Of a stretch of DNA of 64,000 bases, positions 36,412 to 47,382 are shown in pieces. Source of the DNA: Mesorhizobium sp. M3A.F.Ca.ET.080.04.2.1 (GTDB lineage Bacteria > Pseudomonadota > Alphaproteobacteria > Rhizobiales > Rhizobiaceae); NCBI RefSeq assembly GCF_003952525.1, contig NZ_CP034451.1, forward strand, positions 1,116,001 to 1,180,000, written 5' to 3'. A program made the translations under genes and the position numbers. Position 1 is the stretch's first letter. The number at the start of each line of letters is the position of its first letter. The notes below the pieces were generated by a model. It searched no databases. It was not told the DNA's origin and saw only the letters and a list, made by a program, of their open reading frames with translations.

Positions 36412-36825
36412 CGACACCTCCATATCGTAAGCGGCAGAACGATGGTTCACCGGGTGCCGCTTTTGAGGTGCGTCTGTATCCGATCGATTGCGCGCGAACG
36501 GTGAAGAGCTTCACGAAACCGCGCCAGCCTGAAACATATGCACACAAACCAGTTTGGAAAAGGCGCAAGCACAGGCGCGGCGCGATCCCACAAAGCTGGG
36601 CCGTGCGATATCAGGCGTTTAGCCGCGAACCTTGAAGCGTCGATGCACCCACGGGCTGGGGGCGAGCGGTCAAGCCGTTTGCGGACCCGAAGGAGCCTGC
36701 TGCGCGGCCTGCGCCGGGAACCGGCCTTTGCGAGCGAGCGTCGGCTTCGAATATTGACGAAGTCTCCCGCCCGCGGCAGGTCCCGCCGCACTGTCAAGCC
36801 GAGCGGAGGAGCCTCCCGGCCGATC
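36412..36825. other. Intergenic region, nothing supported
   Basis: There are 414 bases between the DUF1127 gene and the end of the amidohydrolase gene. I see no known repeat, ribosome site with a protein-like frame, or terminator. Confidence 0.4.
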
Positions 36826-43812: not shown

Positions 43813-45414
43813 TTACTCCGGCGCGCCCGCGAACAGCACCACGCCATCCCCTCCCGTTGCCGGCCAGCCGCGGATGGTGCGGTCGATGCCGCCGGTGAGC
43901 AGCGTGCCGTCGGCGGCGAAGGCGACCGAATAGATCGGGCCGGTGCCGGGGTCGAATTCGGCGATCTCGGCGCCGGTCTCCATATTCCAGATCCTTGCCG
44001 TGCCGTCGAGCGAGCCCGATGCCAGCCGCTTGCCGTCGGCGGACAGCGCTAGCGAGTAGACGGTGCCGGAATGACCGTCCAAGCGGCCGACCTCCTTGAA
44101 GCTGTCGAGGTCCCAGAGCTTGATCGTGTAGTCGCCGCTGCCGGTCACCACATGATGGCCGTCGGCGGTGAAGACGGCGCCATAGGTGCCGCGCTCATGG
44201 CCGTGCCAGCTGCGCAGTTGCTTGCCGGCGACAATGTCCCAGAGCTTCAGCTCGCCGTCGATGCTGCCGGTGAGCGCCCTGGTGCCGTCAGGCGAGACGG
44301 CGACGGAACTGACCGGCCACTGGTGTCCGGGCATCACATGCAAGGCCAAGCCCTTCTCGATGTCCCAGACAATGACCTTGCCGGTGCTGTCGTGGCCGCT
44401 GACGGCGCGCTTGCCGTCCGGGGTGATCGCCAGCTTGTTGACACCGCCGTTCAGGCCTGACGAGAAGACACGCAGCACGGTGCCATCCGATAGCCGGCGC
44501 AGCACGATCTCGCCGTCGTCGCCGCCGGTGAGCGCGCTTTTCCCGTCGGGCATGAAGAGTGCTGCGCGCGCCATGTCCTTGTGCTCGCCGAGATTGCGGA
44601 TCAGCCGCTTGCCGTCGATGTCCCAGAGCTTGATCATGCGGTCGGTGCTGGCGCTCAGGATCTCGTGGCCATCGGGCGAGACCGCCAGCCAGACGACGGC
44701 ATCGCGATGGCCGTCCGGCGCGGTCGGCTGGGTGGGCGGCGAAGGCGGCGGCGCCACCGTCACCGGCGGCGTGGCGGGCGGCAACGCGATTTGCTGGGTG
44801 GCAGCTGCGGGTGCCGGGGCCGTCTCTTGCGTCGACGGCTGGGCTGGCGTCGACGGCGGCGATCGCGGAGGATGCGCCAGGTCGGGCGGCACCTCGGCCA
44901 AGGGCACCTGGGGAAGCGTCGGCTGGGCAGGCGTCGCGATGGGCTCGGCGGGCGGGGTCGCTGCCTTTTCCTGAGCAGGGCTGGCCGGCTGCGGAGCTGG
45001 CGCAGGCTCTATCGGCGTCGCGGGCGCTGCCGGGGCGGCGACTTCCCTGGATTGTGCCGGTTCGCCGCTCGGCGCAAACCAGGCACCGGTCTGGTCGGCG
45101 ACGATCGCCAGCACGGCAAGCAGCGGCACGGTAAGCACGATGCCGCGCAGCCGAGGACGCCCGGCCGGCGCGATCTCGGCATCGCGGCCGAACAGCGGCG
45201 CCGACGGGTCATGCCTCGCGGCGGCCGGCAGCAGGCCGGCGATGAACAGCAGCCCGGCCATGACCGAGAGCAGGCCGGCCGCGCCGAACAACTCGGAACG
45301 AAGCGAGGCGAAGCCTTCCAGGCCGGGCCCGAGCGCGAGATAGAGCTTGGCGAAGCAGGCGGCGCCGACAGCCAACATCACCAGCGCCAGCAGCCTGTCG
45401 GTCGATCTTCGCAT
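43813..45414 (-). CDS. Membrane-anchored WD40 beta-propeller protein
   Basis: The product is 533 residues with GGGGGGAGAACCG before the ATG. Three hydrophobic segments (about residues 8-28, 42-64 and 88-106) anchor the N-terminus. A long Pro/Ala linker follows (residues about 115-235, for example PAQPTLPQVPLAEVPPD). The last 300 residues carry seven WD40 blades, six with a plain S/T-PDG-x-x-x-x-S/T-G...WD pattern, enough for a closed propeller. It is a protein-interaction module on the membrane; partners are unknown. It lies directly upstream of the Sel1 gene on the same strand. Confidence 0.9.
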   Translation of the reverse strand: MRRSTDRLLALVMLAVGAACFAKLYLALGPGLEGFASLRSELFGAAGLLSVMAGLLFIAGLLPAAARHDPSAPLFGRDAEIAPAGRPRLRGIVLTVPLLAVLAIVADQTGAWFAPSGEPAQSREVAAPAAPATPIEPAPAPQPASPAQEKAATPPAEPIATPAQPTLPQVPLAEVPPDLAHPPRSPPSTPAQPSTQETAPAPAAATQQIALPPATPPVTVAPPPSPPTQPTAPDGHRDAVVWLAVSPDGHEILSASTDRMIKLWDIDGKRLIRNLGEHKDMARAALFMPDGKSALTGGDDGEIVLRRLSDGTVLRVFSSGLNGGVNKLAITPDGKRAVSGHDSTGKVIVWDIEKGLALHVMPGHQWPVSSVAVSPDGTRALTGSIDGELKLWDIVAGKQLRSWHGHERGTYGAVFTADGHHVVTGSGDYTIKLWDLDSFKEVGRLDGHSGTVYSLALSADGKRLASGSLDGTARIWNMETGAEIAEFDPGTGPIYSVAFAADGTLLTGGIDRTIRGWPATGGDGVVLFAGAPE

Positions 45415-45471
45415 CGGTTCTCCCCCCGGGCCGAGCGCATCTCCATGCTGGGAGAAGCGATTTCACCAGCT

Positions 45472-45508
45472 TAGAGCGGTTCACCGTTTCAGGGAAACGG
45501 CACCGCCG
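45472..45508. repeat. Short rhizobial palindrome (AGAGCGGTTCACCGTTTC type)
   Basis: AGCGGTTCACCGTTTC and GAAACGGCACCGCC pair around AGG with a few mismatches. This element type recurs between genes in rhizobia. Confidence 0.6.
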
Positions 45509-45633
45509 CAAGAGCCGGAATCGACAGGAGAGCACATAAGCCTGCCGCCGTCGGTGATGCCCTTCACGTTCGTGACCACGGCTAGGTTGCAGATTTTCTC
45601 GCCTCGCGACGCCAATATCTGGGCAAAGGTGGA
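45481..45633 (-). other. Protein-like fragment without a start codon
   Basis: Between a stop upstream and the TGA at 45481 the frame reads STFAQILASRGEKICNLAVV and continues TNVKGITDGGRLMCSPVDSG to a Cys. The composition is protein-like with three Cys. Its last residues lie in the palindrome at 45472-45508. No ATG with a ribosome site is present, so it may be a remnant of a gene. Confidence 0.25.
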
Positions 45634-45771
45634 CTGCGCTGCTGGTCAAGTGTTGACGGCGTGCAACAGAAGTCCGAATTCCTCAAGAATAAACAGGAAC
45701 ATCCGCCCGCTTCGTTGACAGCAGACCGGCATGTGACATTATCCGCCGGGGATTTTCAGGAGAGACACGGC

Positions 45772-45861
45772 ATGAAGAGGACCTACGAGAAGCCCATTGT
45801 CGTCCGGAAAGGCAAGCTTTCGGCTATCACGGCAAACGCTCCGGTATCGGGCGCGGATTGA
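45772..45861 (+). CDS. Lasso/RiPP-type leader peptide, copy 1 (29 residues)
   Basis: The ATG at 45772 has CAGGAGAG eight bases upstream. The leader carries TYEKPIVVRKGKLSAIT, the YxxPxLxxxGxLxxxT pattern of lasso-peptide and related rhizobial RiPP precursors, with Ile for Val at one position. What follows is only ANAPVSGAD, eight or nine residues. The T-x boundary would give a core of NAPVSGAD with Asp at position 8. The first residue is not the usual Gly, Ala, Ser or Cys, and there is no tail to thread. No cyclase, protease or RRE gene is near. It is tandem with copy 2. Confidence 0.7.
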   Translation: MKRTYEKPIVVRKGKLSAITANAPVSGAD

Positions 45862-45931
45862 TCGGCGCAGGTTTCGAACGTGACACCTTTGCCTTGAGCG
45901 TTTCGCCAAGGCGCTGCAGGGGGATTGAACC

Positions 45932-46042
45932 ATGAAGAAGAGCTACGAGAAGCCCAGCTTGGTCCGCAAGGGCAAGCTGTCCGCGATCACCGCCGGCAAC
46001 GGCGCTTCGATCATAACGCCTCCGCCTCCGCCTCCAGCCTGA
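45932..46042 (+). CDS. Lasso/RiPP-type leader peptide, copy 2 (36 residues)
   Basis: The ATG at 45932 follows GGGGGATTGAACC. The leader reads SYEKPSLVRKGKLSAITA, nearly identical to copy 1, while the tail differs completely: GNGASIITPPPPPPA, ending in a run of six Pro. Conserved leader with a variable tail is the hallmark of a precursor family. Only 70 bases separate it from copy 1, so a tandem duplication with tail divergence is likely. The poly-Pro tail has no Asp or Glu for a lasso ring; a linear or unmodified product is possible. Confidence 0.7.
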   Translation: MKKSYEKPSLVRKGKLSAITAGNGASIITPPPPPPA

Positions 46043-46203
46043 TCTACCCGTTTCGCATCATCAGGACCGGCATCACGCGGCGCTTCGTTTGGTGCGGCGG
46101 GGTTTTTGATGTCGGGCGCTTGAGGCGTCGTGCTGAAGAACAGATCCAGCTGACGCGCTTAAGTCGTTCGTCTTGATGGGAAATTGCTCTGGGCATTAGG
46201 CGC

Positions 46204-47382
46204 TCAACGCGCCAGCACCAGGTCGTCCAGCACAAGCTGCCAACAATGCCTGGTGGAGATGCGCACGCGCGTCACAGCCTTCAGCATCGGCGCGTAATGC
46301 ACCGGCGCCAGCGCCGAGAGCACGATTTCGTCGCTGCCGACCAGTTCATCGCCCAACCAGCTTTCGATCAACGCCACCTCGCCTTCCGAGGCCAGCCATG
46401 CCGCGGTGAGCATCACCGAATGGAAGCCGAAGGGCGAGGCGGCGCCGAACTCTGCGGCATGGCCGCTGCTGGTATAGGCGCTGTGATTGCCCGAACTGTT
46501 GCCGTTCAGATAGCCGTGGCTGTCCTTGACGTAGTTCCTGGCGATGGCGTTGAGGTTGCGCCAGTCGAGCCCGCCATAGCCGGACGGGATCTTCTGGAAC
46601 GCCAGCGGCGTGACATCGTCGAAGCCGATCGTCTCGAGCGCGGCGTCGGCGGCGATCGCATCCGGCCGCAACCGGCCGAGGTCGATGGGGTAAGCCGATA
46701 GCGCCAGGCGCCGGTCGAGGCCGGAGCCCGAAACCCTGAGCATGTCGGCTCCCGCGGGAAGATCGACGAGGAAGTTGCCGGGCGTGAGCTGCCTGGTCTG
46801 CAAAACCCCACCGCCGCCCAGAAGCACAAGTGTTGCCTCGGCCGCCGCCATGCCGCGCACGAAGCGTGCGGGGACAAGGCCGACCGCCTTCGGCAGGTCC
46901 TCGCCGGCAAGACCCGCGGGCGAGCCCGGCAGTTCATCGAGGCGCAGCGTCTGGGTCTCGTTGCCGGTGCTGACGCGCCAACCTTTCGGCACCGAGACGG
47001 AGAACCGATAGGCGCCGGCGTTGCGCAGGATCGCGCGGCGCTTGCTCGCCGACATGACGAAATTGGCGAAGCCGCCATTGTTGGTGCGCACCGCGGCGAG
47101 GAAGGCGCCGCTGTCGTCGAACGCCCGCACCACGATGCCGCCCATCGGCCGGTCGGCCAGGCCGAACCTGCCGTCGCCGTCGACATCCATGAACACGAAG
47201 GACGAAAAATTGAGCCCGCCGCCTTTGCCGCGCCAGTTGGTGCGGGACGCATAGTCGCGAGCCGGGTCGGCGCTGCCGCGCGCCTTGCGGCGCCTGCGGC
47301 GCAGATGAAAGGTGAGCAAGACGAGGGCGACGGCGCCGATGAGGACGAGGATAGAGACGAGGACGACGAGGGCGTCAGCCAT
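46204..47382 (-). CDS. SdrD-B-like/PEP-CTERM-type envelope protein, membrane-anchored
   Basis: The product is 392 residues. An N-terminal transmembrane helix (LVVLVSILVLIGAVALVLLT) is followed by RRRRRK, so the rest lies on the cytoplasmic side by the positive-inside rule, or the anchor acts as an uncleaved signal. Residues about 60-165 resemble an SdrD B-like repeat: FVFMDVDGDGRFGLADRPMG, then GGFANFVMSASKRR and GAYRFSVSVPKGW. The C-terminal half has FDDVTPLAFQKIPSGYGGLD, a motif of choice-of-anchor and PEP-CTERM-linked domains, and ends WQLVLDDLVLAR. Function unknown; carbohydrate or surface binding is a guess. It is convergent with the RiPP-like peptides. Confidence 0.75.
   Translation of the reverse strand: MADALVVLVSILVLIGAVALVLLTFHLRRRRRKARGSADPARDYASRTNWRGKGGGLNFSSFVFMDVDGDGRFGLADRPMGGIVVRAFDDSGAFLAAVRTNNGGFANFVMSASKRRAILRNAGAYRFSVSVPKGWRVSTGNETQTLRLDELPGSPAGLAGEDLPKAVGLVPARFVRGMAAAEATLVLLGGGGVLQTRQLTPGNFLVDLPAGADMLRVSGSGLDRRLALSAYPIDLGRLRPDAIAADAALETIGFDDVTPLAFQKIPSGYGGLDWRNLNAIARNYVKDSHGYLNGNSSGNHSAYTSSGHAAEFGAASPFGFHSVMLTAAWLASEGEVALIESWLGDELVGSDEIVLSALAPVHYAPMLKAVTRVRISTRHCWQLVLDDLVLAR

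Follow-up and report, generated by a model that had tools for sequence, protein, structure and literature searches.

What are the two short open reading frames (ORFs) that lie in tandem within a 64,000-nucleotide stretch of the genome of Mesorhizobium sp. M3A.F.Ca.ET.080.04.2.1, and which enzymes would act on their products? The stretch, in the following called the window, corresponds to C1:1116001-1180000 of the 6.17 Mb single-contig genome (coordinates without C1 are counted from its first nucleotide), and a first-pass annotation had described the two ORFs as precursors of ribosomally synthesized and post-translationally modified peptides (RiPPs) with a common lasso-like leader and unrelated tails, possibly served in trans. 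Our analysis supports the RiPP assignment and points to a cyclase-free, lasso-derived system that serves both precursors in trans and in which B1/B2-mediated cleavage would be combined with phosphorylation of a core serine, a reading to which we assign a probability of roughly two thirds.

The tandem ORFs belong to a dispersed family of small genes

The two tandem ORFs are present as annotated (Table 1), and their leader regions form a 63-nucleotide direct repeat with 81% identity; both leaders comprise 21 residues and end in TA. The lasso-like character ascribed to them is recognized by the lasso leader model NF033521 in case of precursor 2, whereas precursor 1 remains below its cut-off. Five more clear family members are encoded in the same genome (C1:1222855, 1230839, 1230640, 1432139 and 2857074), and the pair 1230839/1230640 is arranged like the pair in the window, with the P-x-SG type peptide first and the NG-x-SI type peptide second. 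In a survey of 146 genomes of the genus (family peptides at E <= 1e-4, lasso cyclase orthologues at E <= 1e-120), the family is present in 100. Two checks that the first-pass annotation had proposed, for further leader-sharing peptides in the genome and for conservation in Mesorhizobium, thus came out positive. The family leader has the 21-residue consensus MKKxYEKPxLxKRxKLSAxTA, and among 139 rows from the genus Y5 is conserved in 134, P8 in 134, L10 in 119 and T20 in 98. A likeness to ribosomal protein S21 in Pfam was far under its cut-off and was rejected. Relatives on two plasmid records are annotated as hypothetical protein or are unannotated.

Several signatures indicate that these ORFs are genes. 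The uncorrected ratio of non-synonymous to synonymous differences (pN/pS) is 0.24, 0.28 and 0.17 for three orthologue groups (14, 7 and 4 sequences, respectively), the mean identity within such groups is 0.75-0.78 in the ORF as compared to 0.27-0.30 downstream and 0.34-0.66 upstream, and a search with a broad G-rich pattern places a Shine-Dalgarno-like stretch ahead of 49 of 60 distinct ORFs of the family versus 50 of 312 control ATGs. Because of these signatures and of the five further members in the genome, both window ORFs are real members of a large, scattered peptide family, beyond what chance would produce. Decaying or non-coding repeats from mobile DNA could also be multicopy and dispersed, and the window does contain one decayed copy, which keeps the serine discussed below and which is not encoded by any listed ORF with an ATG, GTG or TTG start. 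Nevertheless, the low pN/pS values, the concentration of conservation on the ORF, the Shine-Dalgarno enrichment and the occurrence of sites common to several genomes leave such an origin a negligible probability, and we rejected it.

A remote enzyme cluster without a cyclase

In agreement with the first-pass annotation, no match to Transglut_core3 (leader peptidase) or Asn_synthase (cyclase) was obtained in the window; PqqD was not searched genome-wide. The B1/B2 proteins and the asparagine-synthetase-like cyclase that it had suggested looking for do exist elsewhere in the genome, B1 and B2 in two clusters and the cyclase in one of them. This one is a true lasso cluster: the cyclase reaches 734.6 bits with NF033535 (cut-off 525), and the precursor (...GAGTTALDAAFPAHTPFDQLTFS) has the C-terminal Ser required by paeninodin-type kinases, as well as an Asp at core position 8 if the core is taken to start with GAGTT. 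Divergent lasso-type clusters were also seen in two further genomes (G015, locus L129; G019, loci L130 and L132), whose cyclase shares about 28% identity with the one of the window genome; no match to the precursor family was obtained there.

The second cluster encodes PqqD/B1, B2, an HPr-kinase-like protein and a nucleotidyltransferase. It was found in 29 of the 37 genomes of a first set, and all four genes are present in every fetched stretch, which holds for 40 of 40 second clusters when 11 from other genera are included. In these stretches (8.8-19 kb, some ended by contig ends), a cyclase match was found in none of the 40 (29 from the genus at E <= 1e-4, 11 from other genera at E <= 1e-3). 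Family precursors lie within 9 of the 29 genus stretches, just upstream of B1 or past the nucleotidyltransferase gene. A search of solved structures with B2 gave no match.

Within the genus, the distribution of the peptides follows this cluster. The second-cluster B2 is present in 97 of the 146 genomes, and all 97 have family peptides, with 3-26 matches each; of the 49 genomes without it, 46 are without peptides and three have one match each. The precursors thus track the second-cluster B2 and not the cyclase of the true lasso cluster, and the idea of service in trans finds support in this remote cluster.

Could the precursors instead be substrates of the true lasso cluster, which has its own PqqD, B2, HprK-like and NTP_transf_5 proteins, possibly with participation of its cyclase? 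The family leader does resemble lasso leaders, and the cyclase orthologue is found in 102 of the 146 genomes, including 91 of the 97 peptide-rich ones. However, the six genomes that have the second B2 and lack the cyclase orthologue carry 5-14 peptides (G151, one of the six, is just 79% complete), and among the 11 genomes with the orthologue and without the second B2, eight are peptide-free and three have one peptide; in the 38 genomes with neither, there are zero peptides. Furthermore, the true lasso cluster has its own precursor, family precursors were seen beside the second cluster in the genus as well as in other genera (see below), a ring would by rule be possible in 1 of 157 tails, and the distribution of the peptides on an rpoB tree is not that of the cyclase, albeit judged from two pairs only. 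On this balance, we regard the alternative as improbable.

Beyond the genus, the second-cluster B2 was found in 17 of 397 genomes of the order, six of them from the same genus and 11 from seven other genera (42-50% identity). All 11 have the genes for B1, B2, kinase and nucleotidyltransferase, and no cyclase match was found within the 11-16 kb fetched around the cluster. The leader profile matches with at least 10 bits in 9 of these 11 stretches. Family peptides accompany B2 in 16 of its 17 genomes (10 of 11 from other genera, G221 being missed) and were seen in 1 of 380 genomes without B2, there as a weak partial match, with the limit that at most 20 first-look candidates were scored per genome, so misses are possible. 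As to the independence of the profile, five of the 11 other-genus genomes had contributed rows to it and five were found without contributing, three of the latter being congeners of a contributor. Dispersal of the precursors over several contigs was seen here too, in G384, G508 and G520. This order-level survey is a better replicate than the rpoB test within the genus, for which 40 genomes were picked by hand with exceptions favoured and 39 had rpoB. On the best rpoB tree, the cluster state needs seven changes, two of which are forced by well-supported branches, and the peptides follow.

A conserved serine in otherwise variable tails

The tails had been described as unrelated, but both window tails have a Ser at position +5 after TA (NAPVS and GNGAS), as have most members whose leader has the penultimate Thr (Thr-type). 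Tails were collected by a leader-only profile over fetched loci, and since the profiles used to select these loci also covered the tail, there is some selection bias in the following counts: Ser is at +5 in 83 of 94 distinct Thr-type tails of the genus (within-tail shuffle mean 14.3; 0 of 5000 shuffles reach 83), in 13 of 16 Thr-type tails of other genera (shuffle mean 2.2; 0 of 5000 reach 13) and in 35 of 38 tails of an earlier set after removal of near-duplicates, and at least one Ser is present in 148 of 148 distinct tails counted. The other positions of the Thr-type tails vary. The six-proline tail of precursor 2, which had been considered unusual for any RiPP, is less exceptional in this family, as PPP occurs in 12 of 157 tails across three genera.

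The judgement that the tails do not fit a lasso core was correct. With a rule of G/A/S/C at position 1, D/E at positions 7-9 and a minimum of five residues beyond the acid, 1 of 157 family tails qualifies and neither window peptide does; a lasso product of the window pair was rejected, as the cores have no ring acid. A Cys pair brackets the Ser in 20 of 157 family rows and could form a disulfide loop; this subtype was seen at loci L038, L047, L049, L085, L086, L095, L158-L163, L168 and L195.

In the kinase-like protein of the second cluster, the P-loop, H137, D177 and D178 are invariant in 40 of 40 clusters. The protein has a profile match to HPr kinase chains, and 62 of its 66 named relatives are from Mesorhizobium; an orthologue is encoded in M. 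ciceri WSM1271. The conserved Ser is probably modified, and this modification is perhaps a phosphorylation.

Proposed mechanism and points against it

In the mechanism that we propose, the leader would be bound by the PqqD/B1 protein of the second cluster as a stand-alone RiPP recognition element (RRE), and B2 would cut after TA, a site predicted for the window precursors because of the lasso leader rule, thereby releasing a short core of mostly 6-13 residues. Because the cluster has no cyclase, this core would stay linear, or would be closed by a disulfide in the subtype with Cys on both sides of Ser. The conserved core Ser would then be phosphorylated by the HPr-kinase-like protein and may receive a further decoration from the nucleotidyltransferase, as from PsmN in pseudomycoidin. 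In each genome, 3-26 precursor genes would thereby depend on one enzyme cluster, which would act on them mostly in trans, and the positions flanking the Ser would be free to vary.

Which observations weigh against this mechanism? With regard to the co-occurrence, G076, G147 and G159 have a single precursor without the second-cluster B2, and G004, counted among the 46 peptide-free genomes, has a weak match (8.3e-4). Only two independent pairs exist on well-supported rpoB branches, which is too few for significance, and the co-occurrence at genus level is hardly separable from shared descent, which is the main caveat. With regard to the cyclase, the true lasso cluster of the same genomes sits outside the fetched stretches, in most genus genomes farther off, and in G020 the lasso cyclase ends only about 9 kb from the second B2. 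For any export of the product, no transporter was identified for the cyclase-free system. None of nine other family precursors scanned reaches any NCBIfam cut-off. After leaders without the penultimate Thr (mostly VA; 34 genus tails), the Ser is mostly at +2 to +4, without enrichment at +5 (4 of 34, versus 5.6 in shuffles).

The three genomes with one copy and without the second B2 would also be compatible with unprocessed small proteins or regulators, in which the leader-like part is functional by itself and the tail is incidental. The near-strict co-occurrence with a leader peptidase and the +5 Ser amid otherwise variable tails are difficult to explain in this way, and we consider such a function very unlikely. 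The lone precursor of G076 (L169) is intact and has the core QIVASGVVLGE.

Further points concern the phosphorylation. The kinase-like protein remains under the Pfam and NCBIfam cut-offs and is a divergent relative of HPr kinases. In two fold comparisons, each with 50 matches listed, all of these were phosphoenolpyruvate (PEP) carboxykinases or a model containing one, and no HPr kinase was among them. Moreover, the known lasso kinases modify a C-terminal Ser, whereas the family conserves the Ser at +5 and not at the C-terminal end, and residues follow it in both window peptides. The same proteolysis might therefore be accompanied by another fate of the Ser, either a different modification (nucleotidyl, glycosyl or acyl transfer) or a role in recognition, with the kinase-like protein having another target or activity; the nucleotidyltransferase is indeed as constant as the kinase across the clusters. 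As the catalytic residues named above are invariant, and as the kinase gene in all 40 clusters is matched by a Ser in all 148 tails, we consider this unlikely, though less so than the other alternatives, and favour cleavage with phosphorylation of the core Ser.

With somewhat less than even confidence, we would go further and regard the family as a separate RiPP class, namely short, cyclase-free peptides with a phosphorylated and perhaps glycosylated core Ser, which occur in Mesorhizobium and in scattered genera of the order and in which one B1-B2-kinase-nucleotidyltransferase cluster serves dispersed precursors in trans. If so, the variable residues around Ser could yield small phosphopeptides in many combinations, which would act as signals or effectors. 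Mesorhizobium is known for its legume symbionts, and with 97 of 146 genomes carrying 3-26 precursor matches each, the genus offers a directly testable set of uncharacterized small peptides.

Relation to known systems

Lasso biosynthesis is defined by its cyclase. The family shares with lasso peptides of the B1/B2 split type the leader pattern Y..P.L with a penultimate Thr, the PqqD/B1 RRE and the B2 leader peptidase, and it differs from them by clusters without a cyclase match (40 of 40 fetched stretches), by the missing ring acid, by very short cores and by many dispersed precursors. Because two defining features are absent, a cyclase in the cluster and a ring-capable core, the family members are not lasso peptides. 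The system resembles the first half of a lasso pathway, supplemented by the enzymes that tailor phosphorylated lasso peptides and lacking ring closure. If a conserved lineage keeps B1, B2, kinase-like protein and nucleotidyltransferase but no cyclase, the lasso toolkit would make other, probably linear, products as well, and genome mining seeded on the cyclase, or on precursors beside it, would tend to miss such a system.

A similar logistic principle is known from the prochlorosins, where one enzyme set likewise serves many dispersed precursors with conserved leaders and variable cores; in contrast, the chemistry there is that of lanthipeptides, and the enzymes are unrelated. Paeninodin and pseudomycoidin (PadeK/PsmK, PsmN) resemble our system in having an HPr-kinase-like protein beside B1 and B2 and a conserved core Ser, and in case of pseudomycoidin also a nucleotidyltransferase, whereas in our family the Ser is internal, mostly at +5, and not C-terminal, a cyclase is missing, and the cluster is mostly remote from the precursors. 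The bsf cluster of Bradymonas sediminis (BsfA, B1, B2, C, D, K and N; PMC10368454) is alike in B1, B2, kinase and nucleotidyltransferase and in a non-Thr penultimate leader residue, comparable to the VA/AA/IA minority of the family, and differs by its lasso cyclase and ABC (ATP-binding cassette) transporter. In the openly licensed literature searched, which was covered in part, no comparable cyclase-free system was found.

Genomic surroundings of the precursors

Table 1. Coordinates of the window precursors, their surroundings and the enzyme clusters of the genome
Feature	Position	Strand	Remarks
Precursor 1 ORF	45772-45861	+	29 residues, MKRTYEKPIVVRKGKLSAITA followed by NAPVSGAD
Precursor 1 leader	45772..45834	+	MKRTYEKPIVVRKGKLSAITA; NF033521 17.4 bits, under cut-off 19
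Precursor 1 predicted core plus stop	45835..45861	+	NAPVSGAD, Ser at +5
Precursor 2 ORF	45932-46042	+	36 residues, MKKSYEKPSLVRKGKLSAITA followed by GNGASIITPPPPPPA
Precursor 2 leader	45932..45994	+	MKKSYEKPSLVRKGKLSAITA; NF033521 21.6 bits, over cut-off 19
Precursor 2 predicted core plus stop	45995..46042	+	GNGASIITPPPPPPA, Ser at +5, six Pro
Promoter-like TTGACA-16-CATTAT	45715..45742	+	TG before second hexamer; ends 30 nucleotides before precursor 1; consensus match only
Terminator-like stem-loop with T run	46082..46103	+	Downstream of precursor 2; consensus match only
WD40-repeat gene	43813..45414	-	Conserved left flank of precursor site; Pfam WD40 175.4 bits
SdrD_B-like gene	46204..47382	-	Conserved right flank of precursor site; PF17210 20.3 bits, sub-threshold (cut-off 29.7)
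Decayed family copy	36670..36759	-	RQYSKPTLARKGRFPAQAA followed by QQAPSGPQTA; profile match E 1.5e-4; Ser at +5 kept
True lasso cluster	C1:2894324-2901753 (L012:6325-13754; ~C1:2.8943-2.9018 Mb)		Precursor, PqqD, B2, cyclase, HprK-like, ABC transporter, NTP_transf_5
Second, cyclase-free cluster	~25 kb from true lasso cluster, 1.7 Mb from window		PqqD/B1, B2, HprK-like, convergent NTP_transf_5 gene
PqqD/B1 of second cluster	C1:2871882-2872166		PqqD 42.6 bits, cut-off 23.4
B2 leader peptidase of second cluster	C1:2871448-2871879		Transglutaminase-like; NF033537 72.6 bits, cut-off 33

The site between the WD40-repeat and SdrD_B-like genes (43813-47382) recurs: in 11 other genomes, 1-4 family precursors lie next to relatives of one or both of these genes, and precursor copy number and core vary between genomes; at the matching site of G002, the core on the WD40 side is QVAPSA and the other is NAPVSTTTPPPA. 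Among the recurrent neighbourhoods, this is the one that was identified. A second one (L036, L041, L095 and L135) lies beside 12-13 of the dispersed precursors, for example ones with the tails QQATS and QTVSS. A partner gene common to the dispersed copies was rejected, as the top neighbour families adjoin just 24, 23, 21 and 21 of 122 dispersed precursors. One promoter-like site was found versus 0.3 expected in shuffles, which is not functional evidence, and three terminator-like sites were found in the region versus 0.6 expected. A fusion of a family leader with a Peptidase_S74 domain (endosialidase chaperone; L184:5857-6255, minus strand; PF13884, 34.7 bits) was noticed close to the second-type cluster of G303.
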